Below the pieces are notes generated by a model. That model did not search any database, was not told the origin of the DNA, and worked only from the letters and a program-made list of their open reading frames with translations. The translations under genes and the position numbers were made by a program. DNA of 64,000 bases from a virus: IMG/VR virus record IMGVR_UViG_3300032249_000861, positions 1-64,000 of that record; one strand, 5' to 3'. The number at the start of each line of letters is the position of its first letter. Position 1 is the first letter of the stretch. This document shows positions 3,630 to 39,675 of the stretch, one piece after another.

Positions 3630-3657
3630 CTTCAACTCTCTCTTTCTTTCTGTCACC

Positions 3658-3686: not shown

Positions 3687-3711
3687 TAGCTTAGGCCAGA
3701 AAAACTTTCCT

Positions 3712-3810: not shown

Positions 3811-3845
3811 TGTCAACTGCTATAATTTTGTGCAGTAGTGATCGT

Positions 3846-4220
3846 TCATTCATCACTCTTGAAGCTGAACGGGCTGAGTTCCAGATGGGCGACCGCACCG
3901 TATTGCTTGGTCAGTTCTTCGACACGTTCACGACTTCCCGGCTTGCCAACCGGAACGATCATTGTGTCCTCACCCCCCACATAGCGTGGGTCAGCCTTTT
4001 CCTTGCGAGCTTTGCCAATGTTCTTCAGTGCGGCACGATTGAACTTGAGAACCTTTTCAGTCACAACGTAACGCTTGTGGTCAGTTACACCGTGAACATA
4101 GTCAACGTCGATGATAAACTGCTCATCGGTCACTTCGTGGCGAACGGGAATCGCGATACCCTTGAAGATCATACGGGCTTGACGCTCGGCATTTTCGATG
4201 ATGGGATACTTGGTTTTCAT
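3846..4220 (-). CDS. Hypothetical protein, 124 aa
   Basis: It starts MKTKYPIIENAERQARM and is basic in the centre (LKFNRAALKNIGKARKEK), with a C-terminal KPGSRERVEELTKQYG segment. An AGAGAGAAAAG site precedes the ATG. It looks like a soluble alpha/beta protein, perhaps nucleic-acid binding by charge. I recognise no family. It is monocistronic under the promoter at 4261-4288, and palindrome copy 5 lies just downstream of it. A 249-codon plus-strand frame overlaps the whole locus and was judged a shadow. Confidence 0.7.
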   Translation of the reverse strand: MKTKYPIIENAERQARMIFKGIAIPVRHEVTDEQFIIDVDYVHGVTDHKRYVVTEKVLKFNRAALKNIGKARKEKADPRYVGGEDTMIVPVGKPGSRERVEELTKQYGAVAHLELSPFSFKSDE

Positions 4221-4260
4221 TTTCTTTTCTCTCTTAGGTCTATCGTTCTCTTGTGCGTGA

Positions 4261-4288
4261 ATTATACCAAAAAACTTTTTCTTGTCAA
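4261..4288 (-). promoter_or_regulatory. Sigma-70 promoter without the CGATAATA motif
   Basis: Minus-strand TTGACA (4283-4288), 16-nt spacer, TATAAT (4261-4266). It lacks the GTCGATAATA motif seen in most promoters of this arm. It drives the 124-aa gene. Confidence 0.8.
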
Positions 4289-4295
4289 TCCCCTC

Positions 4296-4454
4296 TTATG
4301 CGGGGGATATCTCATGATCGCCACAATCCCAAAGGTTTCCACCTTCGGTACGCACGATCCACACATTCCCCTCATCGTAGGTATAGGAAACAATCTTTCC
4401 TACAATCTTTTTCTCGAATCCCTTGAGCACAACCTTATCACCAATTTCAAACAT
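4296..4454 (-). CDS. KOW/SH3-like small protein, 52 aa
   Basis: It begins MFEIGDKVVLKGFEKK and continues IVGKIVSYTYDEGNVW, then WDCGDHE. The GDKVVLKG...GKIVS pattern is typical of small SH3/KOW-type barrels that bind RNA or protein. The ATG at 4454 has an AGAGAGAAAAG site and follows the promoter at 4495-4523. The stop lies 8 nt before the next promoter. It is too short for confident family naming. Confidence 0.65.
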   Translation of the reverse strand: MFEIGDKVVLKGFEKKIVGKIVSYTYDEGNVWIVRTEGGNLWDCGDHEISPA

Positions 4455-4494
4455 TCTTTTCTCTCTTTCTTTCTTCTCTATCTCTTATATCGAC

Positions 4495-4523
4495 ATTATA
4501 CCACAGCTTTCTTGAGTTTGCAA
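4495..4523 (-). promoter_or_regulatory. Sigma-70-like promoter followed by GTCGATATAA
   Basis: Minus-strand TTGCAA (4518-4523), 17-nt spacer, TATAAT (4495-4500), then GTCGATATAA (4485-4494) directly abutting the -10. It drives the 52-aa KOW-like gene. Confidence 0.8.
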
Positions 4524-4601
4524 GAGAAATCCAGAGATTTTATTGTCAAGAGATTTTGACAAAACTTTTCGTCATTTCCTTTGGGCTTGGCACACCATTT
4601 G

Positions 4602-4692
4602 CTAAGTCGTCGTAAAGTCTTATGGGGCAAGTACTTACGTCGAGCGGGGCCCGCCCGCCTTGCCCTAAGTGCTTTAGGGTCAAGGACTTACG
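4602..4692. repeat. Intergenic imperfect palindrome, copy 6
   Basis: CAAGTACTTACG and CCCTAAGTGCTT flank GCGGGGCCCGCCCG. The outer arms CGTAAAGTCTTATGG and AAGGACTTACGG extend the symmetry. It ends just before the stop of the gene at 4694. Confidence 0.8.
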
Positions 4693-4693
4693 G

Positions 4694-5011
4694 TTAGTAT
4701 ACCAGATTCATATCGGCTACCGTTACCCCATCAGTATATGGTGTACCATCGTCCAGGTACCATTCTCCCTTGCGTTGATACACACGTACAGGCGAATACT
4801 GGTTGATTCTATCTTTAGTGGTAATGGTATACCATCCACCCGTATTGAGTGTAGCAGAGTTATCGGGATGAATACGTACAACGGTCGTACCATGTAAGGC
4901 GATACCTACGCTACCATCAGGAAGAATTTCCGCATAGGTATTGTTACCCACCTTGCGAGTATTCCTCTTAGTCTTACCATGTACCATCTTAGTAGCTTCG
5001 TAGTGTGTCAT
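4694..5011 (-). CDS. Hypothetical protein, 105 aa, possible nucleic-acid binding N-terminus
   Basis: It begins MTHYEATKMVHGKTKRNTRK, then a beta-rich section with repeated turns (LPDGSVGIALHG, VRIHPDNSATL, WYTITTKDR, GEWYLDDGTPY). This could be a small beta-sheet protein with a basic N-terminal arm. AAGGAAAAC precedes the ATG at 5011. An in-frame start far upstream (5101) would overlap the 39-aa membrane gene and is rejected. It is the second gene of the unit starting at 5141. No family is recognised. Confidence 0.65.
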   Translation of the reverse strand: MTHYEATKMVHGKTKRNTRKVGNNTYAEILPDGSVGIALHGTTVVRIHPDNSATLNTGGWYTITTKDRINQYSPVRVYQRKGEWYLDDGTPYTDGVTVADMNLVY

Positions 5012-5021
5012 TTTGTTTTCC

Positions 5022-5141
5022 TTAGTCGTTTTCGTGCAGAATGGAATGAACAGCGTTACCCACTTCGTGGGCAGTATACGAAATAAAACCAGCAAAAGCA
5101 ATCAAGGCGAACAGTTGAGCGTATTCGATAACCGTAATCAT
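5022..5141 (-). CDS. 39-aa membrane peptide
   Basis: It starts MITVIEYAQLFALIAFAGF, forms one membrane span, then a His-containing polar tail (HEVGNAVHSILHEND). A GAGAG site lies 7 nt before the ATG at 5141, and the promoter at 5167-5195 is correctly placed. It is followed 10 nt later by the 105-aa gene. It joins the group of tiny membrane peptides in this arm. Confidence 0.6.
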   Translation of the reverse strand: MITVIEYAQLFALIAFAGFISYTAHEVGNAVHSILHEND

Positions 5142-5166
5142 TAGACTCTCTCTTTCTTGTGTCATC

Positions 5167-5195
5167 ATTCTACATCTATTATCGACCAATGTCAA
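5167..5195 (-). promoter_or_regulatory. Near-consensus promoter with GTCGATAATA in spacer
   Basis: Minus-strand TTGACA (5190-5195), 17-nt spacer with GGTCGATAATA, TAGAAT (5167-5172). It drives the membrane peptide and the 105-aa gene. Confidence 0.85.
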
Positions 5196-5225
5196 CCCCT
5201 AGCAGCAAGAAAAACTTCCTTACAA

Positions 5226-5321
5226 TACCGTAAGCTTTCTCTAAGTCTATACGGAATAAGCACTTACGTCGAGTTCGGCCCGTCCGCCTAGCCCTAAGTA
5301 CTTATAGGGCAGGGGTTTACG
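5226..5321. repeat. Intergenic imperfect palindrome, copy 7
   Basis: AAGCACTTACG (5258-5268) and CCCTAAGTACTT (5292-5303) flank a CGGCCCGTCCG centre. The inner arms differ from copy 5 yet still pair, with G-T or matched changes. It ends at the stop of the gene at 5322. Confidence 0.8.
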
Positions 5322-5537
5322 TCATGAGGCGTGAATGAACACCGTTTCGCTTACTGTACGGTTGGTCACCGTCACGATCCAATTCTTTCCACTACCATCC
5401 TCACGCATGATGCCATTGATAAGGCCCACATGAGCGTTACCCCTTGGGTCGATCACACAGTGATACTTGCCAGCTCGCATAGCAGCGAAAATCTTGTCAA
5501 GATTATTCGTCACAGTTTTATAGTTAGTCTGAAGCAT
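5322..5537 (-). CDS. Hypothetical protein, 71 aa
   Basis: It starts MLQTNYKTVTNNLDKIF and continues AAMRAGKYHCVIDPRGN, then NWIVTVTNRTVSE, ending FIHAS. A helix is followed by several strands, with a small soluble look. AAGAGGAAAAAG gives a strong ribosome binding site. Its promoter (5561-5589) is consensus but without the CGATAATA motif. No family is recognised. Confidence 0.7.
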   Translation of the reverse strand: MLQTNYKTVTNNLDKIFAAMRAGKYHCVIDPRGNAHVGLINGIMREDGSGKNWIVTVTNRTVSETVFIHAS

Positions 5538-5560
5538 CTTTTTCCTCTTGGGTTGATTCT

Positions 5561-5589
5561 ATTCTAGTGTTTTGCTCTTACGTTGTCAA
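5561..5589 (-). promoter_or_regulatory. Sigma-70-like promoter without CGATAATA
   Basis: Minus-strand TTGACA (5584-5589), 17-nt spacer, TAGAAT (5561-5566). The spacer lacks the conserved motif. It drives the 71-aa gene. Confidence 0.8.
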
Positions 5590-5603
5590 TACTGTACGAA
5601 CTA

Positions 5604-5837
5604 TCAGTTGACCGCAAAATCATCGATAACGTATCCCATATCGTCAATCTCGATCCAACCGCCATCGTCCATGAACCCAAGCTCATCATCGATTGCAATC
5701 TGGTTGTATCCGCTTGCACGAACATGGTCGAGAAGATCAGCAGCAAAAGCAACTCGACCAACCAAAGTAGAAAGGCTAGTGTTGTCAAGGAACTCCCTCA
5801 ACTCAGCCACAGTGTTCAGAACGATCAGGTTTTCCAT
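5604..5837 (-). CDS. Acidic hypothetical protein, 77 aa
   Basis: It starts MENLIVLNTVAELREFL, with a helix-rich first half (LVGRVAFAADLLDHVRA) and an acidic second half (IDDELGFMDDGGWIEI), ending IDDFAVN. The ATG at 5837 is preceded by AAAGAGGATAAG. An upstream in-frame ATG at 5879 overlaps the -10 element and is rejected. It is monocistronic. Function is unknown. Confidence 0.7.
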   Translation of the reverse strand: MENLIVLNTVAELREFLDNTSLSTLVGRVAFAADLLDHVRASGYNQIAIDDELGFMDDGGWIEIDDMGYVIDDFAVN

Positions 5838-5877
5838 TTTCTTATCCTCTTTTTGTCTCTTGGTCTCTTGTGCTTTC

Positions 5878-5905
5878 ATTATACAGTATTTATCGACACT
5901 TTCAA
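5878..5905 (-). promoter_or_regulatory. Sigma-70-like promoter with GTCGATAAAT
   Basis: Minus-strand TTGAAA (5900-5905), 16-nt spacer containing GTCGATAAAT, TATAAT (5878-5883). It drives the 77-aa acidic gene. Confidence 0.8.
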
Positions 5906-5965
5906 GAGAAATCTTTGGAATTTTTGAAATATAATTTCATGCCAAACAAAATCTTTTTTATATTT

Positions 5966-6060
5966 ATCATAAGTCTATATGTGGTAAGCACTTACGTCAA
6001 GCGGGGCCCGTCCAACAAGACATAAGTCCTTGCCTACCATATACTTAGGGGGTTTTTTCG
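5966..6060. repeat. Intergenic imperfect palindrome, copy 8, at the end of the small-gene arm
   Basis: AAGCACTTACG (5986-5996) pairs with CATAAGTCCTT (6020-6030) around GCGGGGCCCG. The outer arms TATATGTGGTA and TACCATATA are complementary. It is followed on the plus strand by GGGGGTTTTTTCG, so it could also terminate rightward transcripts. The compositionally distinct left arm ends here. The 98 nt to the next gene hold no other feature I can identify. Confidence 0.75.
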
Positions 6061-6157
6061 TTTTCAAGGGGCTAAGGGGCCGCACCGTCAAAACCGCCGG
6101 GAGGTCCATAAACAATAAGCACCCCCATATATAATTGGCCAGTTTAATAGCCAGTTA

Positions 6158-6462
6158 TTAGTATCTGTTTGGAACATAAACCGTTTGAGGCAATGTTACC
6201 ACTTCATACTTTTTAAAAAAGCAACAGTATCGACGTTCCACTAGTATATTTTGATAACTTGTCACAGGAACGAACAGAGGAACTGCAGGAGCAATAGTTA
6301 CGGTTGGAGCATAATATTGAATCATCTGAAAATTTTGAACTACTGGAGCTTGTTGACTCACTATTGGAGCCCGATAAACATACGGCCCCATCCTTCATCT
6401 CCATTAACACTACCACAACATCCTACACAAACTAAAAACACTGTTGCTAATAGCTTTTTCAT
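6158..6462 (-). pseudogene. Frameshifted gene for a small secreted Tyr/Pro/Val-rich protein
   Basis: The ATG at 6462 (site AGAGGA) encodes a signal peptide, MKKLLATVFLVCVGCCG, then SVNGDEGWG. That frame ends soon after. The next frame continues as GPYVYRAPIVSQQAP to a clean end at YVPNRY. Adding one G to the run of four (C-run 6386-6389 on the plus strand) restores a single 101-aa protein, GDEGWGPYVYRAP. This is either a true homopolymer indel, an assembly error or a programmed slip. The product resembles the protein at 9312-9626 in size, secretion signal and Tyr/Pro-rich body. Confidence 0.65.
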
Positions 6463-6553
6463 AAAAAATCCTCTATATTAGAAAGTAATTGACCGATTTC
6501 CCGCTAATACTATTATCGACAGACCTTGCTCGGAACTTTAGAAATAGCAGAAA

Positions 6554-8359
6554 CTACTCCACAGTCACACTTTTTGCTAAATTTCTTGGCTTATCAACGT
6601 TTAAGTTCAATTTTATAGCATAATAATAGGCTAATAGCTGAAGAGGTATCACAGACAATAGTGGACTTAGCTGATCTATTGTTGAAGGAACCAGAATATC
6701 ACAATGTTCTTGAGATCCTAATAATATTACAGGACCATTTCTTGCTTTTATTTCTTGAATATTATTTTGAAGCTTCTGATATTGATCCATGTTGTTTGCT
6801 ATAACTAAAGTTGGAGTATCTTTATCAACCAAAGCTAAAGGCCCGTGTTTCATCTCTGCTGCAGCATATCCTTCAGCATGAATATAGCTTATCTCTTTAA
6901 GTTTTAAAGCGCCCTCTAAAGCTATTGGAAAGTTGTATCCTCGTCCAAGAAACAAACAATTTTTAATGCTTTTGTATTTTTCAACTGTTTGTATTAGCTG
7001 ATCACTATCGCTTAGTGTTTTTTTAATTAAGTATGGTAGTTGTAGTATGTTACTAATTAAATTTTTTCTAATATTAGTATTAGAGTTTTCTTGATTTTGA
7101 TTTATCCATAACGATAATAGAAGCAATACCAAAACCTGATTCAAAAAAGTTTTAGTACTAGCTACTCCTATTTCTACTCCTGATCTTAAGAAGATACCAC
7201 AATCTGTCATTCGTGCCATTGTTGAATTAGGAACATTACATATACCAATAATAGTAGCTCCTTGAGCTTTTGCTTTTTCTAATGCTGATAATGTATCTGC
7301 AGTTTCCCCACTTTGACTAATTCCAATAACAATATCACCAGGACCAATTGCTGTTGTTCGATATTTAAATTCACTAGCATACTCAACACTAACTTTAATA
7401 TTATTTAATTCTTCTATGTAGTACTTGCCCAATAATCCAGCATTCCAACTGGACCCACATGCTACTATGGTAATATGATTAGCAGATGCTAATATCTTTT
7501 CATATCCTAATAATCCCCCTAGTCTAATACTATCTTTAAAAAGCCTGCCACTAAAACATTGAGCTATAGTATCAGGTTGTTCATTTATCTCCTTAAGCAT
7601 GTAAGAATCATAAGCCCCCTTGTCAGAAGGCATTCTATGATCTAACACCTTTTCAATTTCACAATCCACCTCAACACCACATGTCATATCATATGTAATG
7701 ATTTGATCACCGATTTGACATATGTTATTATCTTTCAAATAGATTAGATCTGTAATATTTTCATCAATGCCCATCTTATCAGAAGACACATAATATTCCT
7801 GATCACCCACCCCGACTATTAAAGAGCTTCCTTTTCTTGCACAAACAAGAGTATTAGGATTATCTTTGTCAACAATTACAATAGCATAAGCCCCCATAAC
7901 TTGTTCTAAAGCCAATTTAACAGCTTCAAATAACGACAGATTATTTAAAATCATAATATCGTATACCAGATATAATAATACTTCGCTGTCAGTATCTGAA
8001 GAAAAATTATATTTCTTAGAAAGTTCAGCTTTTAAATCTTTATAATTCTCAATGATACCGTTATGAACTAAAGACAACCGCCTATCTTCTGTAACATGAG
8101 GATGACAGTTGTTAACAGATGGTTGTCCATGAGTTGCCCATCTAGTATGAGAGATAGCACAGTATGATCTCAATAATGACGAGCCTACCTCTTTTTTTAA
8201 AGATTCTACTGGCCCCACAGACTTATAAACTTTAAATTCTGGACCACAAACATAGCACACCCCAGCACTATCATAGCCTCTATATTCTAGATGAGATAGT
8301 TTGTCTAATATATTGTTAGAGCAGTTGTTCTTTCCTATATATGCTACAATTCCGCACAT
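6554..8359 (-). CDS. glmS: Glutamine--fructose-6-phosphate aminotransferase (isomerizing)
   Basis: GlmS makes glucosamine-6-phosphate from fructose-6-phosphate and glutamine, the entry step to UDP-GlcNAc, in the cytoplasm. At 601 aa it is the usual full length. It opens MCGIVAYIG with the catalytic Cys2, followed by EYRGYDSAG and SHTRWATHG of the Ntn glutaminase. The first SIS domain has ACGSSWNAG and SQSGETADT. The second has GRGYNFPIALEGALKLKE and AEMKHGPLAL, and the protein ends KPRNLAKSVTVE. No key residue is missing. Its start overlaps the fucose synthase stop by 16 nt, so the two are co-translated sugar genes. It is AT-rich like the structural region. Probably functional; likely supplies amino sugar for surface glycans or for modification of phage components. 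Confidence 0.97.
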   Translation of the reverse strand: MCGIVAYIGKNNCSNNILDKLSHLEYRGYDSAGVCYVCGPEFKVYKSVGPVESLKKEVGSSLLRSYCAISHTRWATHGQPSVNNCHPHVTEDRRLSLVHNGIIENYKDLKAELSKKYNFSSDTDSEVLLYLVYDIMILNNLSLFEAVKLALEQVMGAYAIVIVDKDNPNTLVCARKGSSLIVGVGDQEYYVSSDKMGIDENITDLIYLKDNNICQIGDQIITYDMTCGVEVDCEIEKVLDHRMPSDKGAYDSYMLKEINEQPDTIAQCFSGRLFKDSIRLGGLLGYEKILASANHITIVACGSSWNAGLLGKYYIEELNNIKVSVEYASEFKYRTTAIGPGDIVIGISQSGETADTLSALEKAKAQGATIIGICNVPNSTMARMTDCGIFLRSGVEIGVASTKTFLNQVLVLLLLSLWINQNQENSNTNIRKNLISNILQLPYLIKKTLSDSDQLIQTVEKYKSIKNCLFLGRGYNFPIALEGALKLKEISYIHAEGYAAAEMKHGPLALVDKDTPTLVIANNMDQYQKLQNNIQEIKARNGPVILLGSQEHCDILVPSTIDQLSPLLSVIPLQLLAYYYAIKLNLNVDKPRNLAKSVTVE

Positions 8360-9282
8360 GATTTAGTAGTTAAGTACCATTCTATAGTTGTTTTTAATCC
8401 TGATGTAAAATCTTGTTTCGGTTCCCAGTCTAATAACTGTTTAGCTTTAGCAATATTCAAAACTCTTCGTGGCTGGCCATTTGGTTTATCACTATCCCAA
8501 AGAATATCTCCTCTATAATTAACCAACTCTTTAATCTTATCAGCTAACAATAGAATACTAATTTCTTTATTAGACCCAATATTAATAGGACTAGGATCCT
8601 TAACCTTCTCCATGCCGTTAACTATCGCCCTTGCAGCATCCTGCACATACAAAAACTCTCTTGTTGCTGATCCGTCTCCCCAACAAGAAACATTGGGGAA
8701 GTTATATTTTTTAGCTATGACAAATTTTCTAATTAGCGCAGGAATAACATGAGAAGAAGCTGGATCAAAGTTATCAAAAGGTCCATACAGATTAGTTGGT
8801 ACTATTACACAACTATTTAATCCATATTGTTTTTTATAAGCCTCTAACATAACAAACAAAGCCTTTTTAGCAACACCATACGGAGCATTAGTTTCTTCAG
8901 GATATCCATCCCAAATATCTTCTTCCATAAAAGGAGCATCACAAAATTTTGGATAAGCACATACTGTACCAATTTGAACAAACTGGCTAACCCCGTATAA
9001 TCTGCTCATCTCAATAAGATTAGATCCCATAACCATATTACTATAGAAGAATCTTCCAGGATTGGCCATATTCGCCCCGATACCTCCAACCTCTGCTGCC
9101 AGATGAATCACAGTATCAGGCTTATGCTCTTCAAATAGTTTTTTAACAGTATTATAATCAGTTAGATCATAGTCTTTCTTACGGGGGATAAATATATCGG
9201 TTTGGCCGTAATTCCTATTCAATAGTTCCTGATAAACAAATCGGCCTAAAAATCCACCACCACCAGTTAATAATATTTTCAT
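8344..9282 (-). CDS. fcl: GDP-L-fucose synthase (GDP-4-keto-6-deoxymannose epimerase/reductase)
   Basis: This short-chain dehydrogenase-type enzyme converts GDP-4-keto-6-deoxy-D-mannose to GDP-L-fucose with NADPH. It has 312 aa with the Rossmann motif TGGGGFLG (6-13), HLAAEVGGIGANMANP (60-75), the catalytic region GTVCAYPKF (105-113) and Y135-x3-K139 (APYGVAKK), and the later TNLYGPFDNFDP. The usual catalytic Ser is a Thr-Val pair here, a variant known in this family. The partner Gmd is encoded at 11673-12677 on the other strand. AGGAAAAAAAATAAG precedes the ATG. A related NDP-sugar epimerase is possible, but context with Gmd supports GDP-fucose. Confidence 0.88.
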   Translation of the reverse strand: MKILLTGGGGFLGRFVYQELLNRNYGQTDIFIPRKKDYDLTDYNTVKKLFEEHKPDTVIHLAAEVGGIGANMANPGRFFYSNMVMGSNLIEMSRLYGVSQFVQIGTVCAYPKFCDAPFMEEDIWDGYPEETNAPYGVAKKALFVMLEAYKKQYGLNSCVIVPTNLYGPFDNFDPASSHVIPALIRKFVIAKKYNFPNVSCWGDGSATREFLYVQDAARAIVNGMEKVKDPSPINIGSNKEISILLLADKIKELVNYRGDILWDSDKPNGQPRRVLNIAKAKQLLDWEPKQDFTSGLKTTIEWYLTTKSCAEL

Positions 9283-9311
9283 ATCTTATTTTTTTTCCTA
9301 TATTCTATACT

Positions 9312-9626
9312 TTAATACCTATAAGGAGCAACCATCATACCATTGCTATAATATGAACCAGGATTACCAAACCAACAAAGCCCATGATAATATACGGGGG
9401 TAATATGCTGGTATTGATAAATCGTAAAATTAGGTATGACTATTGGCCGAAATTCCCAAGTATGTACTAACACTTCTTTCTGCACCAATACTAGAACAAA
9501 AGAAACGTTTGGAGCTTGAGAGTATACTATTGATTGAGACGGAACAGTTTGATATATAACATCTTGACCATAAGAAACTGAACAAAACGTTAGGGCCAAA
9601 AGAAATAAGACACTTTTAATCATCAT
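9312..9626 (-). CDS. Small secreted Tyr/Pro-rich protein, 104 aa
   Basis: It has a clear signal peptide (MMIKSVLFLLALTFCSVSYG, cleavage likely after the Gly or Gln). The mature body is rich in Val, Tyr, Pro, Gln and aromatic residues (QTVPSQSIVYSQAP, NFTIYQYQHITPVYYHG), ending MMVAPYRY. AAAGGAAG lies upstream. It resembles the broken gene at 6158-6462, so the glmS-fcl pair is bracketed by two related secreted proteins. Such small Tyr/Pro-rich exported proteins occur in host genomes, and transfer from the host is possible. Role unknown. Confidence 0.75.
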   Translation of the reverse strand: MMIKSVLFLLALTFCSVSYGQDVIYQTVPSQSIVYSQAPNVSFVLVLVQKEVLVHTWEFRPIVIPNFTIYQYQHITPVYYHGLCWFGNPGSYYSNGMMVAPYRY

Positions 9627-21578: not shown

Positions 21579-23750
21579 ATGGCTGTTCAAACATTAATTC
21601 AGGTTCGTAGAGGCACAGCAAGCGAATGGAGAATAGCCAATTCAACACTAAGTGCTGGTGAATGGGGTTTTGAAACAGACTCAAAAAGATATAAGATAGG
21701 TGATGGTCTAACATCATGGAATAGTTTGCCCTACTCGTCTATATTACCATCATCTAGTGATCTTTCTGGAGTAAGCGGCATAGGCGTATCGTTTACTGCA
21801 AACTCTGGCGTACCTGTTACTATTGCTGTTACTGGTATTAGCTCATCACAAGTTACTAATTTTAATAGTTCCGTAAGCGGCCTATTGCCAGTTAAAAGTA
21901 TCTTAGCAGGAAATAACATTACTGTTACTCCTACTGGTGATAATGGGTTTGTTATTAGCTCTCCAGTAAATGAAGATACTGTTAAAGACATTATCGGCTC
22001 CACCATTGTTGGCGTGAGCGGTATTAGAGCAAGTTACGACAGTGTTAATAAAATAGAGACCATCTCAGTTACTGGATTGACTAGTTCATATATCGGAGAC
22101 TTTAATACTGCAGTAAGTGGACTATTAGGAGTTAAAAGTCTGATTCAAGGTACTGGCATAGGTATTTCGAATGCCGGAGGAAACCAGACAATTAGTATTA
22201 CTGGTATTCCAACATCTTTGATCACCAACTTTGCTAGTGGTGTTAATACTCTTATTGATAATGCTGTTAGTGCAAGTATTGTTGGAGGTAGCGGTGTTGA
22301 TATTGTATACAATAGTGGCACAAATACTCTTACTATTAGTAGTGCTCTAACTGCAGGCAGTGGAATAGCATTAACTCATAATAGTGGTAATTATGTTGTT
22401 AGTCTAAGTGATCCTACCATTCAGCTATCAGAGATTACAGACCTGTCAGCTAACGCTAGAAGCTTTTTACTAACACCAAGCAGTAACAATCTTTCAGCTC
22501 TAGTTAGTGACGAAACAGGAACAGGTCCTCTAGTATTTGCTAATAATCCAACAATGAGTGGAGTTACTGTTAACGGTAATCTTACTGTTAGTGGTAGTGG
22601 ATTAGTGGCCAGTAATGTTAACGACTTTAATACTGCTGTAAGAACTAATCGTTTAGATCAAATGGCTGTTCCTACAGGTGATGTATCGTTCAATAGTGTT
22701 AAGATCACTAGTTTAGCGGATCCAGTTAGTGCCCAAGACGCTGCTACAAAGTCCTATGTTGATGCTGCCCGAATGGGTCTTGATGTTAAAGAGAGTGTCA
22801 GAGTTGCCACAACGGCAAACTTAACACTATCTGGAACACAAACTATTGATGGAGTATCTCTTTCAGCTGGTGATAGAGTATTAGTTAAAAATCAGAGTAC
22901 AGCTAGCCAAAATGGTATTTACGTAGTGGCCGCTGGAGTTTGGGGTAGAGCTTCTGATGCTGATATTAGTGCAGAAGTAACAGCCGGTATGTTTACTTTC
23001 GTGGCCGAAGGTACTGTTAATGCTGATAGTGGATGGGTATTAACAACGAACGATACCATCACTCTTGGCACAACAAGTCTAACATTTGCTCAATTCTCTG
23101 GAGCAGGCCAGATAACTGCTGGTGCTGGTTTAACAAAGAATGGTAATACTATAGACGCTGTTGGTACAGCTGGTCGTATAGTTGTTAATGCTGACAATAT
23201 TGATCTTGATACAGTAAGCCAAACAGACGGGAGTGGTTCGGCTGGTACTAGTTTTGTACAGAGTGTTACTAGAGATTCTTATGGACGAGTAACCGGAGTA
23301 ACAACAGCCTCGGTACAAGACGCCACGACTTCTGCTAAAGGTATAGCTAGTTTTGATAGTGGAGATTTTAGTGTTGCTTCTGGCTCTGTTAGTATCAAGG
23401 CTAGCGGTGTTGATAACTCTCAGTTAGTCAACAGCGCTGTTACAATTGGTTCAACATCAGTTAGTCTTGGAGGAAGCGTAACTTCTGTATCAGGATTGAC
23501 TAGTGTTGCTAGTACGTCATTCGTTGGTGATTTGACAGGTACTGCTACTAATGCTAATAATATTGAAGTTGATCTTAGTACAAGTAATGTGAATAATCTT
23601 GTCTTTGTTAATGGCACAGATGGTAATCTTAAGCCTAGTGTTAATAATAATTTAAGATTTAATGCGTCAGCTAATGAGTTACTAGGTTCATCAAATACAA
23701 CCCCAGCAACAACACTGAAGTATTTTATTATCGATGGAGGCACACCATAA
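21579..23750 (+). CDS. Tail fibre protein with Mtd-N-like attachment domain
   Basis: Residues 1-55 (TLIQVRRGTASEWRIANS, GEWGFETDSKRYKIGDG) match the N-terminal module that docks many tail fibres to the virion (Mtd/hyaluronidase-type). A stalk of about 50-residue repeats follows, each with 'TGISSSQVTNFNSSVSGLL', 'TGLTSSYIGDFNTAVSGLL' and similar steps. The shaft then includes the common fibre element DAATKSYVDAARMGLDVKES, SAGDRVLVKNQST and ITAGAGLTKNGN. It ends FIIDGGTP without an obvious tip enzyme. AGGAG precedes the ATG. It likely forms a trimeric side or central fibre for host recognition. Confidence 0.88.
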   Translation: MAVQTLIQVRRGTASEWRIANSTLSAGEWGFETDSKRYKIGDGLTSWNSLPYSSILPSSSDLSGVSGIGVSFTANSGVPVTIAVTGISSSQVTNFNSSVSGLLPVKSILAGNNITVTPTGDNGFVISSPVNEDTVKDIIGSTIVGVSGIRASYDSVNKIETISVTGLTSSYIGDFNTAVSGLLGVKSLIQGTGIGISNAGGNQTISITGIPTSLITNFASGVNTLIDNAVSASIVGGSGVDIVYNSGTNTLTISSALTAGSGIALTHNSGNYVVSLSDPTIQLSEITDLSANARSFLLTPSSNNLSALVSDETGTGPLVFANNPTMSGVTVNGNLTVSGSGLVASNVNDFNTAVRTNRLDQMAVPTGDVSFNSVKITSLADPVSAQDAATKSYVDAARMGLDVKESVRVATTANLTLSGTQTIDGVSLSAGDRVLVKNQSTASQNGIYVVAAGVWGRASDADISAEVTAGMFTFVAEGTVNADSGWVLTTNDTITLGTTSLTFAQFSGAGQITAGAGLTKNGNTIDAVGTAGRIVVNADNIDLDTVSQTDGSGSAGTSFVQSVTRDSYGRVTGVTTASVQDATTSAKGIASFDSGDFSVASGSVSIKASGVDNSQLVNSAVTIGSTSVSLGGSVTSVSGLTSVASTSFVGDLTGTATNANNIEVDLSTSNVNNLVFVNGTDGNLKPSVNNNLRFNASANELLGSSNTTPATTLKYFIIDGGTP

Positions 23751-24713: not shown

Positions 24714-27215
24714 ATGAAAAATAGCAAAATATTTATTAAAAATGGACAACCTTATGTTCTGCCAGTTCGCTTGGTAGATGGTGTTTGGGTGGGTTATGTT
24801 GATCACAATATATCAGCAGCAGTCACCGCACCGCCAGGAGCTAATTCTGCTAATTATAATTTTTGTGCTGATTGGGACTCTAGGACCATTGGGGGGAGTG
24901 GCGAACAATTTTTAAACGGTAATGTTACAACCGTTGGGACCAACGGCGGACCAAGTGCTTACGGAACATATGATCAAATTGGGCAAATCCGTGAGTGGAA
25001 TGATTCGGATAATATCACCATTCGTGTGACGCGGGGCGGCGGTTGGGACAGTAACGCGTTCTTATTGTCGTCCTCCGACGACGGCTTGTACCTTAACTCG
25101 CACGGTCAGGGCAATACTGCCGTCGGTTTTCGTATCGCCAGTTCCTTTTCTACTCCTAATCCTTTAGCTCTTTCTAACTTTGTGACTGTTGGTGATGTTA
25201 ACAACTCTGCTGATACTGGAGGAACTGTTGGAAGAGGTAGTGTAGGCTACAGTTATGCTATAGGAAAGTATCCTGTAACCAATAGTGAATACGTTGAATT
25301 TTTGAACGCTGTTGCTGCAACTGACTCGTATTTTCTTTACAATCCCAATATGGCAGATGCTAGGGGCGGTATCACACAATCAGGAAGTGGTGGAAGTTAC
25401 ACTTACTCAGTAAAAACCAATTACGGTAATAAGCCAGTAAGTTATGTAAGCTGGTATGATTGCGCAAGATACTGTAATTGGCTTCATAACAATAAACCGT
25501 CTGGAAGTCAGAATAGCAGCACAACAGAAAACGGAGCCTACACCTTGAGTGGGGCAACAACAGGAAACGCAGTATCTAAAAACGCTGGAGCAAAATACCA
25601 CATTCCTACAGAAGATGAATGGTATAAAGCCGCTTACTATAAAGGTGGCGGAACAAATGCTGGATATTGGAGCTATGCAACTCAAAGCGATACTGAACCA
25701 ACATGTGTTAATGCTGATAGCATAGGAGACGGTATCCCTACCCCTGCACCAACACCAACAGTCACACCAACACCAACAGCCACCCCAGCACAGGTTGAAT
25801 CATTGGAAACTTCTATTGGATCAAATATTGTACTTTCTATTCCTAAACAACAGCCTTCTGACATAGGAATATCTTTAAATTTTGACTCTGTCGTTGATTC
25901 CGGAGTAACTACGATAGTTACTATAAATCCAAACTTAAATACTCCGGATCTTCCAGCTAATTTCGTGGTTGGAGACTCTTTAGCATCTTTTTCAATAAAT
26001 TCGACTGCCAGCTTCTCTGGTGACGTGGTGCTTGATTTTTACCTTCCGGAAAGTATTTCGCAACAAATTTTTAATTCGTGTAGAATATTTAGGGTTTCAA
26101 ACGGACAAACCACGGACTCAACTGTACTTAATGGACCAAAAGCTCCAGATTTTAGCACAAAAAGAATATCAGCACTAGTGAATGGTTTTAGTGAATTCTA
26201 TGTTATACCAGAAACAATCGCTCCAACACCAACACCAACTCCAAGTTCTAGTTCAGTAGCAGTCACGCCCACACCAACTAATACGATTACACCAACAGCT
26301 ACACCAACACCAACGACCACACCAACGACCACACCAACCTCCACACTAACACAAACCCCTACTACTACTCCGACAACTACTATAACTAATACTCCTACTT
26401 CTAGTACTATACCAGCTACGCCCACTCCAACAGTAACGCCAACGCCAACCGCCACACCAGCTCCTCAATCGGTATTATCTGCCTCTGGATGGACGGGTAG
26501 CGGCACCAACTCTAGCCGACTGACCCCTCCCGGCAATTTTGATAATGCAACAATCTCTGTGGGCCAGACGGGGGTGCTGAATGTCAAATTCCACGTGTCT
26601 GGAAGCGAAGACACACAGGCCATTGTTTCTGTCAATGGGGTGTCGAGGCGAGGGGTTGCCAACTATGCCGATGGTGAAGTGCAAACCGTCGGCGTAATGT
26701 CTGGCGATACTGTCACGCTGAGTACGAACGACAATCGATATATTGATTGGTTCGCAGCGACCCGCGTTTGGATTGGCGATCTGCCAGCCAACAACTCCAT
26801 TACTTTCCCGTTTGGTATTGGAAGCCCCAACGGATACAGCCTTGCGGGTGCGGGAACCAGCGCAAGCCCATATTATTTCAACTTCGCCCGCAATGTTGAA
26901 AAGATTCCGATTATCTGGGTACGGGGAACGCAGCAGATAACTTTCCAATTTGGCGATCATCGCGGTGAAGAGGATAGCGAAGTAGTCGAAGCGATCTACT
27001 CATTCAGTTCCTTCCCCGACATCAACAAAAATCAATTCCCATCGCCCACGGGCGGGACGTTGATTGCCTCCGGTCGCAACACTACCGTCACTGTAACGGT
27101 GACAGACAAGTTCCTAGCGATGCGGCGGCGCAATGCCGAATGGGGGCCGTTTGTCGATTACTACCCGCAAGACTTTTTCAACGGCGGGCCGTCTGTAAGA
27201 TTTTTTGCATCTTAG
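24714..27215 (+). CDS. Mosaic adhesin: permuted FGE/C-type-lectin domain, PT linkers, unknown GC-rich tip
   Basis: It starts MKNSKIFIKNGQPYVLP. Residues 40-145 look like the C-terminal half of a planctomycete-type FGE/sulfatase-modifying domain (ANYNF, SAYGTYDQIGQIREWND, GGGWDSNAF, AVGFRIAS). Residues 150-345 are its N-terminal half (VTVGDVNNSADTGG, YAIGKYPVTNSEYVEFL, VSYVSWYDCARYCNWLH, EDEWYKAAYYKGGGTNAG). The domain is thus circularly permuted. Thr/Pro linkers and a beta domain follow, then a C-terminal module (about 585-833) in GC-rich DNA. The segment GGGWDSNAFLLSSSDDGL is where DGR target proteins vary. Likely a receptor-binding protein. Confidence 0.75.
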   Translation: MKNSKIFIKNGQPYVLPVRLVDGVWVGYVDHNISAAVTAPPGANSANYNFCADWDSRTIGGSGEQFLNGNVTTVGTNGGPSAYGTYDQIGQIREWNDSDNITIRVTRGGGWDSNAFLLSSSDDGLYLNSHGQGNTAVGFRIASSFSTPNPLALSNFVTVGDVNNSADTGGTVGRGSVGYSYAIGKYPVTNSEYVEFLNAVAATDSYFLYNPNMADARGGITQSGSGGSYTYSVKTNYGNKPVSYVSWYDCARYCNWLHNNKPSGSQNSSTTENGAYTLSGATTGNAVSKNAGAKYHIPTEDEWYKAAYYKGGGTNAGYWSYATQSDTEPTCVNADSIGDGIPTPAPTPTVTPTPTATPAQVESLETSIGSNIVLSIPKQQPSDIGISLNFDSVVDSGVTTIVTINPNLNTPDLPANFVVGDSLASFSINSTASFSGDVVLDFYLPESISQQIFNSCRIFRVSNGQTTDSTVLNGPKAPDFSTKRISALVNGFSEFYVIPETIAPTPTPTPSSSSVAVTPTPTNTITPTATPTPTTTPTTTPTSTLTQTPTTTPTTTITNTPTSSTIPATPTPTVTPTPTATPAPQSVLSASGWTGSGTNSSRLTPPGNFDNATISVGQTGVLNVKFHVSGSEDTQAIVSVNGVSRRGVANYADGEVQTVGVMSGDTVTLSTNDNRYIDWFAATRVWIGDLPANNSITFPFGIGSPNGYSLAGAGTSASPYYFNFARNVEKIPIIWVRGTQQITFQFGDHRGEEDSEVVEAIYSFSSFPDINKNQFPSPTGGTLIASGRNTTVTVTVTDKFLAMRRRNAEWGPFVDYYPQDFFNGGPSVRFFAS
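25021..25139 (+). other. Candidate DGR variable region in the C-type-lectin-like part
   Basis: This GC-rich stretch encodes TRGGGWDSNAFLLSSSDD and ends with VGFRIAS, the typical layout of diversity-generating-retroelement variable regions (start around RGG.W, end at GFR). It stands out in composition from the AT-rich flanks. No template repeat or reverse transcriptase was found in the window. Confidence 0.45.
26221..26460 (+). repeat. Thr/Pro-encoding low-complexity repeat
   Basis: Near-tandem ACACCAACACCAAC-type units encode a PTPTPT-style linker of about 80 residues. A shorter copy is at 25740-25792. It separates the beta domain from the GC-rich C-terminal module and would be prone to slippage and recombination. 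Confidence 0.85.
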
Positions 27216-27340: not shown

Positions 27341-29443
27341 ATGGCTGTAAATGACCTTATTACATTTCGTAAAGGAATAGCATCAGAATGGATATCGGCT
27401 AATCCTGTTTTAGCTAGTGGTGAGCCAGGATATGATCTAACAAATAGTATTCTTAAGATAGGCAACGGTGTTTCTAATTGGGTAGCTCTTAGTGGAATAG
27501 GATCAACTAGTGTTGGAGGGTCATCATCTTCGTCTGTTGGAGTTAGAGGAGTTATCAATACAACAGGGGTATTGACCAGTTTCTCCGTATCAGGAGGCTA
27601 CCCTGTTGGATATTTAGACTTATTCCAAGATGGAGTTAAGCTAGTATCAAGTTTAGACTTTTCTGCAACAGACGGATCTAATGTTACTCTTAGCAACAGT
27701 GTACCATCTGGAACAGTTTTAGAATATTTAACTATGGCTTCTGGAGTTTCTTATTTAAACGGAATACTTCCTGGCTCATCAGGATCCCCGGCTATTAGTT
27801 CATCCAATGATTTAACAACTGGTTTTTATTTTCCAAGTTCTGGTAATATTTCAGTAGTTGGTAATTTAGGGATAGGAACATCATCACCCTCAAGCAAACT
27901 TCATGTAGTTGGTGATATTAATGCTACTAGTGGTAATTTTAGTCAGAATCTAAAAGTTAATAATGTTAATGTTAGCGTTAGTGGCCATAATCATATTATT
28001 AATGATATTTCCGGATTACAGACCGCTTTAGATAGTAAGCAAGCTTCTGGAAGCTATGCAGCCAACTCCCATACTCACTCATCTTCAAACATAACTGATT
28101 TTAATAGTAGCGTTAGCGGTTTATTACCAATTACTAATATAGTTGCTGGAAATGGAATTAATGTTGCCATTAGTGGAACAACAGCTATTGTAACTAACAA
28201 TGATACTAGGTGGAATTTGTTTCTGCCAGCCGCACCGACCAACCTCTCTGTGACCAGAGGTAATGGTAAGGCATCGCTGTCATGGACAGCACCTACTGGA
28301 GTGATCGTTCAGGCACCGATTACGGATTACCGCGAGCAATACAGCGACAATAATGGATCAACATGGACGATGTTTTCGTCGGCCTCTTCTGTCGCAACAA
28401 GTGGAACGATCACAGGACTGACCAACGGGACAGCATATGTATTTCGCGTTGCAGCAGTGAACGACATAGGTCTCGGTGCTTATACTGCGGCAAGTAGCAG
28501 CGTTACACCAATAGTCGGAACCCCACCCAATGCGCCAACTAATTTGACTATAACCCCAGGTCAGACACAAGCCTCACTCACGTGGACTGCTCCGTCTGCA
28601 CCCGGTACTTATGCGATCACAGGCTATACAGTGGAATACACACCGTCTGGAGGCTCCGCTCAGACTATCAATACTAGCAGCACATCAACTACCTATACGT
28701 TGACAGGACTGACCAACGGCATCTCTTATGCTGTGAGAGTAGCGGCGGTGAGTGACTCGGGCACAGGGACGTATACAGCAAGCAACAATGTGACGCCCAG
28801 TTCAATGGCTGTGGTGACAGGTGGCACCGTTACGACTCCTGGCGATGGCTACACATATCGAACATTCACCAGCAGCGGTACTCTTGGCATTTCCGGCTCC
28901 TCTCTGACCGCAGACGTTCTTGTGGTTGGCGGTGGCGGGGGTGGCGGCAAAGCCGGTGGCGGAGGTGGTGGCGTTCTGTATCAAACCGGCCAGACTCTTA
29001 ATGCTGGGTCTTATGTTGTAACAGTTGCTGATAGTGTCAATCCCAGTGCAAATGCTGGATCATCGTCATTGGGCGCGTCATACACTGCAACAGGCGGTGC
29101 AGGCGGCGTAAATAACTGGGTAACTGGTGGAACGTCTGGCTTTCCTACCTCAACGTCAAATACTACTGGAAATGCCGGAGGCGCCGGGGCCACTGGTTCC
29201 TGTGACTATACTGGCGGAGGTGGCGGTGGTGCGGGCGGAGCAGGTTCAACGCCGCCGTGTGACGTGCAGTTTGCTGGTGGCGGTGCTGGTAGGCTTGTCT
29301 TCGGCAATACTTATGGTGAGGGTGGCGGTGGCGTTGACCAGAGTGGGGGAACAAACGCCCCAGCGAATATTGGCAGAGGCGGGTCCGGCACCAACTCTCG
29401 CGGAGGTTCTGGTATTGTTATAATCAGATACATTGTTGCATAA
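27341..29443 (+). CDS. Tail fibre with Mtd-N-like start, two FN3 domains and glycine-rich tip
   Basis: It begins MAVNDLITFRKGIASEWISA, homologous to the start of the fibre at 21579. A fibre stalk (SSKLHVVGDINATSGNF, DISGLQTALDSKQASGS, NITDFNSSVSGLL) follows to about residue 290. Two fibronectin type III repeats follow (PAAPTNLSVTRGNGKASLSW, then PPNAPTNLTITPGQTQASL). The C-terminus is a glycine-rich tip (LVVGGGGGGGKAGGGGGGVL), ending SGIVIIRYIVA. From about 28215 the DNA is clearly richer in GC than the 5' half, suggesting that the FN3/Gly tip was acquired as a module. Probable receptor-binding fibre. Confidence 0.88.
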   Translation: MAVNDLITFRKGIASEWISANPVLASGEPGYDLTNSILKIGNGVSNWVALSGIGSTSVGGSSSSSVGVRGVINTTGVLTSFSVSGGYPVGYLDLFQDGVKLVSSLDFSATDGSNVTLSNSVPSGTVLEYLTMASGVSYLNGILPGSSGSPAISSSNDLTTGFYFPSSGNISVVGNLGIGTSSPSSKLHVVGDINATSGNFSQNLKVNNVNVSVSGHNHIINDISGLQTALDSKQASGSYAANSHTHSSSNITDFNSSVSGLLPITNIVAGNGINVAISGTTAIVTNNDTRWNLFLPAAPTNLSVTRGNGKASLSWTAPTGVIVQAPITDYREQYSDNNGSTWTMFSSASSVATSGTITGLTNGTAYVFRVAAVNDIGLGAYTAASSSVTPIVGTPPNAPTNLTITPGQTQASLTWTAPSAPGTYAITGYTVEYTPSGGSAQTINTSSTSTTYTLTGLTNGISYAVRVAAVSDSGTGTYTASNNVTPSSMAVVTGGTVTTPGDGYTYRTFTSSGTLGISGSSLTADVLVVGGGGGGGKAGGGGGGVLYQTGQTLNAGSYVVTVADSVNPSANAGSSSLGASYTATGGAGGVNNWVTGGTSGFPTSTSNTTGNAGGAGATGSCDYTGGGGGGAGGAGSTPPCDVQFAGGGAGRLVFGNTYGEGGGGVDQSGGTNAPANIGRGGSGTNSRGGSGIVIIRYIVA

Positions 29444-36084: not shown

Positions 36085-37338
36085 ATGTCTATTAATAACA
36101 GAGTTTACTACGCATCACAAGCAGTACAGTTAAGACCAACTAGTGCAGAAGGAACATCGTTTGGGTACTGGTATCACCCGTTAGCCGTTCAAAGTGTTGG
36201 CATGCAAACCAACTTTACTACTGAGCAAACTTTTCAATTAGGAACAGTAGAACTTTACGATAATGTTGAAACTATTCCAGAAGTAGAAGTAACCATTAAT
36301 AAGGTTATAGATAGTACAGCTCCTCTATATCTAATGTGCATGGGTGGAAGTGCTGGAATACCAGGAGCAGATAACAAGTCATTAGTATCATTATCAAATA
36401 ATAGAGTTCATTTCCGTTTAGGTATTTACGGCGATGATCAACAATACGTCACAGGATCTGCAAAATCTAGTGTTCTCTGTTCTGGTATGTACTTATCTAG
36501 TTTTAATTATACTTTTCCCGTTGATGGTAATGCTACAGAAGAAGTGACTTTAGTAGGCAATAGTAAATTGTGGAATACCGGAAATATTCCGGGAGTACAG
36601 TCTAATAACTTTGCTGCTGGTACAATGTTTGAACCAACTACTGTAGTTAATGGTATAAAGCCGTCAACAAGCAGTGGCATTGTAACTAGACAATATCTTA
36701 ACATTATTGACTCGGTTCTTCCTACTGGAGTGGGAGGAATTAGAACTCCTGACGGAACACATCAACTTCCTCACGTTCAAAATATTACAATTAGTGCTGA
36801 TCTTGGTCGCGAAACCATTAATCAATTAGGTAAATTTGGACCATATTGTCGCTATGCTACTTTCCCAATTGAGGTTACTAGCGAATTTGAAGTTATTGCT
36901 CAAGATGGTGATGGAGTAGATGCTAACGACTTTAAGACTGATGCGTTCTGTGGATCATTAAAGAAAAATTTACATAATAAAACAATCACTTTATCTGTAT
37001 GTGATAAAGAGAGCGGCAATAATGATAATAGTATGACTTTTAATTTGGGAGATAAAAATACATTAACATCAATTAATTATACCGGCGGAGATACTGGTGG
37101 TGGTAATGCCACAGTTTCATATAGCTTCAGAAATTTTAATACCTTTTCTATAACTGCTGTAGGAAAATATAAAAAGGGTATTGCTTTTGCTGATTCCAAT
37201 GGTGCCATATCTACGCAGTCAGTAGTTGTTGATAGTTCAAAACCAGTTGCTCTTGATAAGCCAAAATCAGTCGCTCTTGATAATTCAGAGCCAGTACCAT
37301 ATTTAGATTATAATTCTGGAGATAACAACAATGTCTAA
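36085..37338 (+). CDS. Major tail tube-like protein, paralogue 1
   Basis: The 417-aa protein starts MSINNRVYYASQAVQLRP and has conserved blocks PLAVQSVGMQTNFTTEQTF, CSGMYLSSFNYTFPVDGNA, TEEVTLVGNSKLWN, ISADLGRETINQLGKFGPY and SINYTGGDTGGGNATVSYS. The two genes that follow share these blocks in the same order. GGGAG precedes the ATG. Size and beta content suit a tail-tube subunit, possibly with a C-terminal Ig-like extension. The C-terminal tail (KPVALDKPKSVALDNSEP) is a short repeat not seen in the other two copies. Confidence 0.75.
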   Translation: MSINNRVYYASQAVQLRPTSAEGTSFGYWYHPLAVQSVGMQTNFTTEQTFQLGTVELYDNVETIPEVEVTINKVIDSTAPLYLMCMGGSAGIPGADNKSLVSLSNNRVHFRLGIYGDDQQYVTGSAKSSVLCSGMYLSSFNYTFPVDGNATEEVTLVGNSKLWNTGNIPGVQSNNFAAGTMFEPTTVVNGIKPSTSSGIVTRQYLNIIDSVLPTGVGGIRTPDGTHQLPHVQNITISADLGRETINQLGKFGPYCRYATFPIEVTSEFEVIAQDGDGVDANDFKTDAFCGSLKKNLHNKTITLSVCDKESGNNDNSMTFNLGDKNTLTSINYTGGDTGGGNATVSYSFRNFNTFSITAVGKYKKGIAFADSNGAISTQSVVVDSSKPVALDKPKSVALDNSEPVPYLDYNSGDNNNV

Positions 37339-38560
37339 TAAAAGAATTTTTTATGCTTCACAAAGTATCAACATTCAGCCAGTTTCAACGGGTACTGCTG
37401 ATCCGATAAACTACAGAGACCCTACTCATTATACTCAGTTTGGAAACGGAAGTAGTTGGGTGGTTCCACTGGGTTTACAAAGTGCTGGTGTTTCAACAAC
37501 ATTCAACTCTGAGCCAGTATCTCAACTTGGTACTCTTCAGGTTTATTCTCAAACAGAAACTTCTCCAGAAGTTGAAGTTACTTTGTCAAAAGTACTAGAT
37601 GGAACAGCTCCATTATATTCTATTTGCACAGCCAAAGTTAATGAGAGCGATACTAGTGAATTAAAGTCAATTAATGCAGATATTACCGAAGTGTCGTCTA
37701 ATATGGTTAATGTTCGCATAGCAGTAACCAAGGATACAGGAGCAGCAGCAACCGGTACTGCCAACTACTATACTCTTTGTGAAAGAATGTACTTATCTAG
37801 TGTTTCTTTTACTTTTCCTGTTGATGGAAATGCTACAGAAGAAATCACATTAGTTGGAACTAATAAGTCATGGAATAGTGGCCCATTAACTCTACCAGGA
37901 GATAATAATGGTACTCCTTATGGAACTGGTACAGAGGCTGTTGTAAGTAGGCAGTATATTTCAGTTACGGGAACAGATACAGCTGCCACTCGTGATAGTA
38001 ATGGAAAAATAAGCGTAAATCCAGCGAACAGTATTCTTCCAACCAGATTGCCTAAATATATTATTAATGGAGTTAGTCAACCTCATTTACAAAATATTAC
38101 AATTAATGCTAATTTTAATCGTGAAAATATTAATGAGCTGGGTTTCTTTGGTCCATACTATAAGTATACCAGCTTCCCTCTTGAGGTGACTAGTGAATTT
38201 GAGGTTATTGCTGTTAGTGGAGATCTAGTATCCGCTAATGATTTTGAATATAAAGATAACGAAGGTAATGACATGACCACTTTTAGCTGCACAACTAAAT
38301 ATGATAATGTTAAGGATGAAGAAATTGTAGTTAAAGTTTGTGGTAATATAGCTGGTAGTAATCTCTATCTTGATCTTGGCAAAAAGAATAAATTAACATC
38401 TGTTAACTATACTGGTGGAGATACTGGTGGCGGTAATGCTACTGTAACTTATAGTTATCAAACATTTAATAAGTTTAATGTAATTCCAGAAGGATCATAC
38501 GCTGACTATGTGACCCATGACGGAACATCCTCATCAACAGAGACACTGGCAAATTACTAA
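37331..38560 (+). CDS. Major tail tube-like protein, paralogue 2
   Basis: At 409 aa it starts MSNKRIFYASQSINIQPVS. It shares PLGLQSAGVSTTFNSEPVS, VTLSKVLDGTAPLYS, CERMYLSSVSFTFPVDGNA and SVNYTGGDTGGGNATVTYS with its neighbours. The start lies 8 nt inside the end of paralogue 1, so they are co-translated. Divergence is clear (insertions and different loops), suggesting an old duplication. It may be a minor tube or a specialised decoration of the tube. Which copy forms the main tube is not decidable from sequence. Confidence 0.75.
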   Translation: MSNKRIFYASQSINIQPVSTGTADPINYRDPTHYTQFGNGSSWVVPLGLQSAGVSTTFNSEPVSQLGTLQVYSQTETSPEVEVTLSKVLDGTAPLYSICTAKVNESDTSELKSINADITEVSSNMVNVRIAVTKDTGAAATGTANYYTLCERMYLSSVSFTFPVDGNATEEITLVGTNKSWNSGPLTLPGDNNGTPYGTGTEAVVSRQYISVTGTDTAATRDSNGKISVNPANSILPTRLPKYIINGVSQPHLQNITINANFNRENINELGFFGPYYKYTSFPLEVTSEFEVIAVSGDLVSANDFEYKDNEGNDMTTFSCTTKYDNVKDEEIVVKVCGNIAGSNLYLDLGKKNKLTSVNYTGGDTGGGNATVTYSYQTFNKFNVIPEGSYADYVTHDGTSSSTETLANY

Positions 38561-38583
38561 TTCATAAATATAGGAGATTTTAA

Positions 38584-39675
38584 ATGGCCAATAATAATAG
38601 AGTTTTTTACGGTTCTCAGGTAGCCCAACTAAAGCCAGCCACTACTGGCAATAACTATAGCGCTTGGTATCAACCTCTAGGCGTACAAAGTGTTGGATTT
38701 AATACCACTTTTGAAACAGAGCAAGCGTTTCAGTTAGGGGCTCTAGATATTTATGCCATTTCAGAAAATGTTCCTAATGTAGAAACAACAATGTCTAAGG
38801 TTCTTGATGGAACATGTCCACTATATTTAATGTGCATGGGCGGGGAGAACGGCATTAGTGGCGCAAACCTAACAGATTTCTCAGATGACCAAAAGAATAA
38901 TAAGGGGCTTGGTGCTTTAGCTAATAATACTGTTACTTTTAGACTTGGTATATATAATGATACAAAATCCAATGTTGCTGGAGAAACTAGCGACTGGGTT
39001 CAATGTTCTGGTATGTACTTATCAAGTTTAAACTACACCTTCCCTGTTGATGGTAATGCTACAGAAGAAATAACTTTAGTTGGAAACAACAAAAGATGGA
39101 GTCAGAATAATGCAGGCACTATGGGTAATATGACTGCTGTTGCCCCAACAGGAGAATATGCCATAGCCAAAAAACTAGCTCGTCGTCAATTTATTAATGT
39201 AAATGGTTCTACTATGCCTACTGGTAGTGGCGGTCTGCCGACCGGCGTAGCAACCAATGTTGACTTACATTTACAAAATGTTACCATTAGTGCTGATCTT
39301 GGAAGAGATCAAATTAATGAGTTAGGATCATTTGCTCCCTATCACCGCTACGCAACATTTCCTGTAGAAGTTACTAGCGAATTTGAAATGATTGCTACAG
39401 AAGGAGATTGGATTAGTGCTAATGACTTTTTATTCCAAAGCGGATGTGGAGTTAATTACACAAATACTGAGTCTCTACCAATTCAACTGCAAGTATGTGG
39501 CAGTGGTGACGCTACTTTAGAGATTTTCCTTGGTAGTGGTAATCAATTAACTTCCGTTAATTATACTGGGGGAGATACTAGTGGTGGAAACGTATCAGTA
39601 ACATATAGTTTCAGAAATTATAATGATTTCTATATGAAGGCTTCTGGTACATATGCTAGTGTTCCTTCGTTATAA
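38584..39675 (+). CDS. Major tail tube-like protein, paralogue 3
   Basis: The shortest copy at 363 aa, it starts MANNNRVFYGSQVAQLKPA. It shares PLGVQSVGFNTTFETEQ, FQLGALDIYAISENVPN, LYLMCMGGENGI, CSGMYLSSLNYTFPVDGNA and SVNYTGGDTSGGNVSVTYS with the other two. AGGAG lies upstream. Closest in its first 50 residues to paralogue 1. As the gene nearest the chaperones it is a candidate for the major tube subunit. Three tube paralogues in a row is uncommon. Confidence 0.75.
   Translation: MANNNRVFYGSQVAQLKPATTGNNYSAWYQPLGVQSVGFNTTFETEQAFQLGALDIYAISENVPNVETTMSKVLDGTCPLYLMCMGGENGISGANLTDFSDDQKNNKGLGALANNTVTFRLGIYNDTKSNVAGETSDWVQCSGMYLSSLNYTFPVDGNATEEITLVGNNKRWSQNNAGTMGNMTAVAPTGEYAIAKKLARRQFINVNGSTMPTGSGGLPTGVATNVDLHLQNVTISADLGRDQINELGSFAPYHRYATFPVEVTSEFEMIATEGDWISANDFLFQSGCGVNYTNTESLPIQLQVCGSGDATLEIFLGSGNQLTSVNYTGGDTSGGNVSVTYSFRNYNDFYMKASGTYASVPSL

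Follow-up and report, generated by a model that had tools for sequence, protein, structure and literature searches.

The permuted-domain gene and its surroundings

The window analysed here is a stretch of 64,000 nucleotides, the first 64 kb of a virus record of 110,025 bp. ORF 24714-27215 lies among virion structural genes (terminase, portal, tape measure and Mtd_N fibre genes). Its protein starts with a short N-terminal segment, followed by an FGE/CLec domain whose two halves are in reversed order and by a PT-rich stalk. A beta-rich segment, a second PT-rich stalk and a C-terminal domain of unassigned kind complete the chain. The features are listed below, each with its basis.

21579..23750, + strand: fibre-like gene with an Mtd_N (major tropism determinant N-terminal) domain; domain match
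24714..27215, + strand: whole ORF, 833 aa; ORF reading
24837..25145, + strand: FGE/CLec C-terminal half, placed first, residues 42-144; half-profile match 43-145 and motifs
25041..25124, + strand: RGG..GFR loop, residues 110-137; divergence hotspot in the family, GC3, and PMC6328139 for the variable region
25146..25175, + strand: junction of native C-terminus and native N-terminus, about 10 residues; half-profiles and motifs
25176..25736, + strand: FGE/CLec N-terminal half, placed second, residues 155-341; PF03781 profile 23-129 (E 1.9e-17) and half-profile
25737..25790, + strand: first PT-rich stalk, from residue 342; sequence and repeat search
26219..26466, + strand: second PT-rich stalk; sequence and repeat search
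26467..27215, + strand: C-terminal domain with GC3 of about 0.5-0.7; codon GC3 and sequence search against solved structures
27341..29443, + strand: fibre-like gene with Mtd_N and fn3 domains; domain match

The two Mtd_N fibre-like genes flank the permuted-domain gene, and there is no retroelement there. The C-terminal domain (26467..27215) has no sequence match among PDB structures.

The two halves of the domain are swapped

In a planctomycete-type FGE domain, the motifs ANY, GNVTTVG, YGTYDQ, EWND, RGGGW and GFR mark the second half; here they lie in residues 42-144, with GANSANY at residue 42 (nt 24837), RGGGW at 107 and GFRIAS at 138. The first-half motifs VTVGD, IGKYPVTNSEYVEFLNAV, KPVSYVSWYDCARYCNWLHN, IPTEDEWYKAAYY and YWSYATQSD are found in residues 155-341, where NFVTVGD is located at residue 155 (nt 25176), IPTEDEW at 297 and SDTEPTC at 325. 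The Pfam FGE-sulfatase profile (PF03781) matches the later part of the protein only, over profile positions 23-129/131, and scores 64.2 bits against a curated cut-off of 23.3. The protein is thus a PF03781 member by sequence, but because its C-half precedes its N-half, against the linear order of the family, it is a permuted variant. The local alignment score of the window unit against a normal-order relative rises from 620 to 775 once the unit is rotated to start at NFVTVGD. Motif order and half-profile matches thereby confirm the swapped halves claimed in the sequence-only reading, whose coordinates were right to within a few residues. Ordinary domain annotation can catch just half of a permuted domain, as in the window protein with its one Pfam match to the N-half.

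The reversed order recurs in viruses and is absent from the closest cellular loci

In the 110-kb record, a PF03781 search revealed three further genes with the halves reversed, at approximately 67.2-68.1, 78.4-79.2 and 82.6-83.3 kb. In each of these paralogues, a match to profile positions 156/162/173-255 comes before a match to 33/35-126/140. All four permuted units of the virus can be aligned over their whole length, and the other three share 36-49% identity with the window copy. Two of the paralogue genes begin within about 10 residues of the permuted domain and run on into PT-rich stalks, and in one paralogue DUF285 surface repeats follow the stalk. The third encodes a long fibre-like protein with the permuted domain close to its C-terminus.

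We split the domain into a C-half and an N-half profile and scanned all fetched viral and cellular loci. The viral loci contain 14 N-C units and 150 tight C-N units, for which the 90 distinct sequences are the safer count, as some loci are one contig fetched by two scans. The cellular loci (best 80 of 570) contain 95 N-C units and one spurious C-N pair. This pair (L094, gap 41) was discarded, as it is the middle of an N-C-N-C tandem, and true C-N order was not found in the best 80 of 570 bacterial and archaeal loci. The excess of C-N order, 150 viral units versus one spurious cellular pair, is far beyond chance.

The junction between the swapped halves has a median of 9 residues, mostly 6-13. 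Near full-length colinear matches to the permuted model occur in all 20 viral records tested (61-244 kb, 1-10 matches each), and several viral proteins hold 2-4 permuted units in series. All 41 permuted units matched PF03781, and both halves retain the core motifs in these units; solved FGE-family chains match the permuted-unit profile in the opposite order. Three paralogues of the virus and many independent viral contigs share the C-N order, which excludes an assembly error as its source. The swap is present in dozens of uncultured, mostly large phages and in none of the 80 closest cellular loci, and the permuted lectin-like domain is therefore a real, inherited rearrangement of a part that seems to serve host recognition and to evolve fast.

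A tblastn search of 50,697 isolated-phage records found no relative of the permuted domain. The terminase of the window phage has only remote matches among isolated phages, mostly Bacillus phages, the best at about 26% identity.

The permuted chain is predicted to form a single fold

With an alignment of the 41 permuted units, AlphaFold2 predicted one compact domain, not two half domains (pLDDT 90.2, pTM 0.92 over 309 residues). The normal-order control L052, from a Planctomycetota MAG and with its own alignment, reached pLDDT 93.3 and pTM 0.92. When the halves were aligned by sequence, the DSSP strings of the two models agreed at 97% in both halves with no helix/strand conflict, and shifted controls averaged 61% and 43%. 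The new chain ends sit in the loop that normally links the two halves. Foldseek gave no significant match for the permuted model in PDB and BFVD, whereas it recovered the FGE family with the normal-order control model. This miss might count against the model: a sequential alignment is handicapped by permutation, yet the N-half alone would be expected to score. Taken with the sequence evidence, the models make a circular permutation that keeps a single fold very nearly certain.

The order of halves alone would also be compatible with a domain-swapped fibre oligomer, in which the C-half completes the N-half of a neighbouring chain and the permuted chain is the open form of a normal domain; phage fibres are often trimers. 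This arrangement is improbable: a single chain already gives one compact predicted domain (pTM 0.92), and the C-N junction, with a median of 9 residues, is short and varies little.

Another explanation is decay, in which two tandem FGE domains suffered a deletion and left non-functional halves or separate relics. Raw material for this exists, as bacterial relatives often carry normal-order domains in tandem. However, both halves keep the core motifs in the 41 units, the order is conserved across 90 distinct units, a single fold is predicted, and units have multiplied within proteins. Conservation thus largely refutes decay, to which we give hardly any credence. The true permutation, one of two options in the sequence-only reading, is supported by the single predicted fold and the recurrence across contigs. 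The other option, the remains of tandem copies, is not really its rival, because circular permutations usually arise when a domain is duplicated and the outer halves are then lost.

Origin of the permutation

We built a tree of 137 units with their halves put in a common order. The permuted and normal labels need 2 changes on this tree, compared with about 46 when labels are shuffled. A tree in which the permuted units form one side of a branch was not rejected (p-AU 0.83) and was 46 log units better than the tree from a free quick search. On a tree of the N-half by itself, 2 changes again suffice; the C-half tree, which is short and poorly resolved, needs 6. One row, L170, groups among normal-order units; it and row L036 are the less certain rows of the set. 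Because label changes are few on the full and N-half trees and the one-clade tree is not rejected, a single permutation event is the simplest reading of the sequences, and a probable one, although not proven.

Tandem normal-order copies are common in the bacterial relatives (L057, L061, L070, L076 and L117), and such arrays are the expected intermediate for duplication with later loss of the outer halves. We propose that a phage acquired a surface-protein module of planctomycete or verrucomicrobial type, that a tandem copy arose, and that loss of the outer halves would have left the C-N order. The permuted lineage may then have spread and multiplied across mostly large uncultured phages. We put at roughly 75% the overall reading that the domain is a receptor-binding module of mostly large uncultured phages, derived from bacterial surface proteins and permuted once.

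Four short viral-classed contigs (L040, L042, L044 and L046) carry normal-order FGE genes, some of them in tandem, and group together in the tree. They may be bacterial sequences that contaminate the collection, or belong to another element.

A variable loop on a probably non-catalytic domain

The RGG..GFR loop corresponds in position to the variable region and ligand site of Mtd, TvpA and TaqVP (PMC6328139). Near-identical phage copies differ at 36% of positions in this loop and at 5% in the N-half. In one closely related pair, L013 and L015, from which this statistic comes, replacement and silent codons number 21 and 5 in two variable segments of the C-half and 19 and 27 elsewhere (p 0.0014). 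The cellular relatives show the loop hotspot as well, so it belongs to the domain and not to the permutation, and is not peculiar to phage tropism. Codon GC3 in the loop of the window copy is 0.70, where the background has 0.2-0.35, suggesting that this piece alone was recently exchanged.

Two patches of GC3 0.5-0.7 were observed within ORF 24714-27215, at 25014-25133 (the loop) and 26514-27215 (in the C-terminal domain), where neighbouring phage genes have 0.2-0.35. They suggest mosaic acquisition.

The membership in PF03781 raises the alternative of an active enzyme of the formylglycine-generating or sulfoxide-synthase type, acting on a host or virion protein. The catalytic cysteine motif GG-x(2-4)-C-x(3-5)-C, however, occurs in 0 of 88 permuted and 0 of 94 cellular units, and the cysteine positions are occupied by S/D/N/T and L/I. 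The domain is moreover borne on a stalk within a block of structural genes, and we consider an enzyme very unlikely.

The fold type and the hypervariable loop are also those of Mtd and TvpA (PMC6328139), and the domain might thus be the target of a diversity-generating retroelement, with RGG..GFR as its variable region. Against this, an RVT_1 search found no reverse transcriptase in the record of the window or in 20 relatives, records that may be incomplete. The 110-kb record holds no template repeat by ungapped or blastn match, and base changes in the loop are not limited to adenines. We therefore hold a retroelement target to be highly improbable. The absence of catalytic cysteines, reverse transcriptase and template repeat from the units and records searched makes it unlikely that the permuted domain is an enzyme or a retroelement target.

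Putative receptor binding and modular inserts

The loops of the permuted domain hold whole modules in several relatives. In L030 (residues 835-1413, ORF 396-9584), a complete normal-order FGE domain lies inside the N-half of the permuted domain. A beta-propeller is inserted at nearly the same place in L208 (minus strand), and L209 (minus strand) has a PA-IL-like lectin domain at another loop (E 2e-4, just under the Pfam cut-off). In L162 (ORF 3-2405), a permuted unit is directly followed by a normal-order unit, which shares 83.5% DNA identity over 830 bp with a gene of L076, a Planctomycetota MAG (ORF 934-6903). The L076 gene encodes a surface-type protein with several FGE domains. This identity points to a recent exchange and gives a lead to a possible host of L162. 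Planctomycete hosts are conceivable, at somewhat less than even odds.

The inserts, the exchange between L162 and L076 and the Mtd_N fibre neighbours support a modular receptor-binding role, which we regard as likely. The domain would be a non-catalytic receptor-binding module on the PT-rich stalks of virion fibres, with the RGG..GFR loop of the C-half as its ligand-contact surface, and its loops may accept further whole binding modules. The label adhesin, given to the window protein in the sequence-only reading, is an inference, though a good one. Ordinary mutation and recombination would be the likely source of loop diversity, because there is no reverse transcriptase and no template repeat and because the changes are not limited to adenines. 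We suggest tentatively that the permutation, made once in a host-derived module, is adaptive: by moving the chain ends and the diversifying ligand loop, it may allow the domain to cap a stalk and to take up whole binding modules in its loops. If true, tropism could evolve in this way without a retroelement, on a fold that retroelements also exploit.

Relation to known domains

The closest known relatives are the PF03781 FGE-sulfatase (FGS) domains of planctomycete and verrucomicrobial surface proteins, with up to 60-65% identity. They share the motifs, the predicted secondary structure and the variable loop with the permuted domain, but have N-C order in 80 of 80 cellular loci (best of 570), where the phage domain has C-N. 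The human and bacterial formylglycine-generating enzyme (SUMF1/FGE) belongs to the same fold family by profile; the permuted domain differs from it in the reversed halves and in lacking the catalytic cysteines.

Among phage tropism proteins, the FGE/CLec fold serves as a standard scaffold on which sequences vary to an extreme degree. The FGE-type CLec variable proteins of diversity-generating retroelements (Mtd, TvpA and TaqVP) resemble the permuted domain in fold type and in the place of the hypervariable loop, and Mtd has a known role in phage tropism. Their variable region lies at the very C-terminus, in contrast to its internal place in the permuted domain. The permuted domain would work much as their ligand-binding domains do but falls outside their genetic definition, with neither reverse transcriptase nor template repeat in the available records. 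Montanier and colleagues, as cited in PMC4444583, reportedly described circularly permuted calcium-dependent carbohydrate-binding modules in 2010; these are likewise natural permutations of a carbohydrate-binding fold, but in a different protein family and not in the phage FGE/CLec domain.

In the open-licence literature, we found no earlier description of a permuted FGE or CLec domain; one elsewhere is possible. A permutation conserved throughout a lineage indicates that the FGE/CLec fold tolerates relocated ends, and the permuted domain offers a natural experiment on what chain connectivity does to a hypervariable binding site. No FGS domains were reported in a survey of 224 jumbo phages (PMC7824862), in contrast to six related viral records that exceed 200 kb and carry the permuted form.

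Other features of the window

Positions 400-6100, a region with few convincing genes, contain a repeat of 60-108 nt in at least 7 copies; its core is GC-rich and palindromic. An Rfam search of the whole record, this repeat included, gave no match, and the window contains no tRNA. Three consecutive paralogous genes (417, 409 and 363 aa) at 36085-39675, just ahead of the tape measure, perhaps encode tail-tube proteins. A single ORF of 7,574 aa spans 42243-64000 of the window and continues to position 64967 in the full record; both of its ends have tape-measure matches. Tail length follows a rule of about 0.15 nm per tape-measure residue, so a tape measure of 7,574 aa would mean a tail of about 1.1 micrometres.
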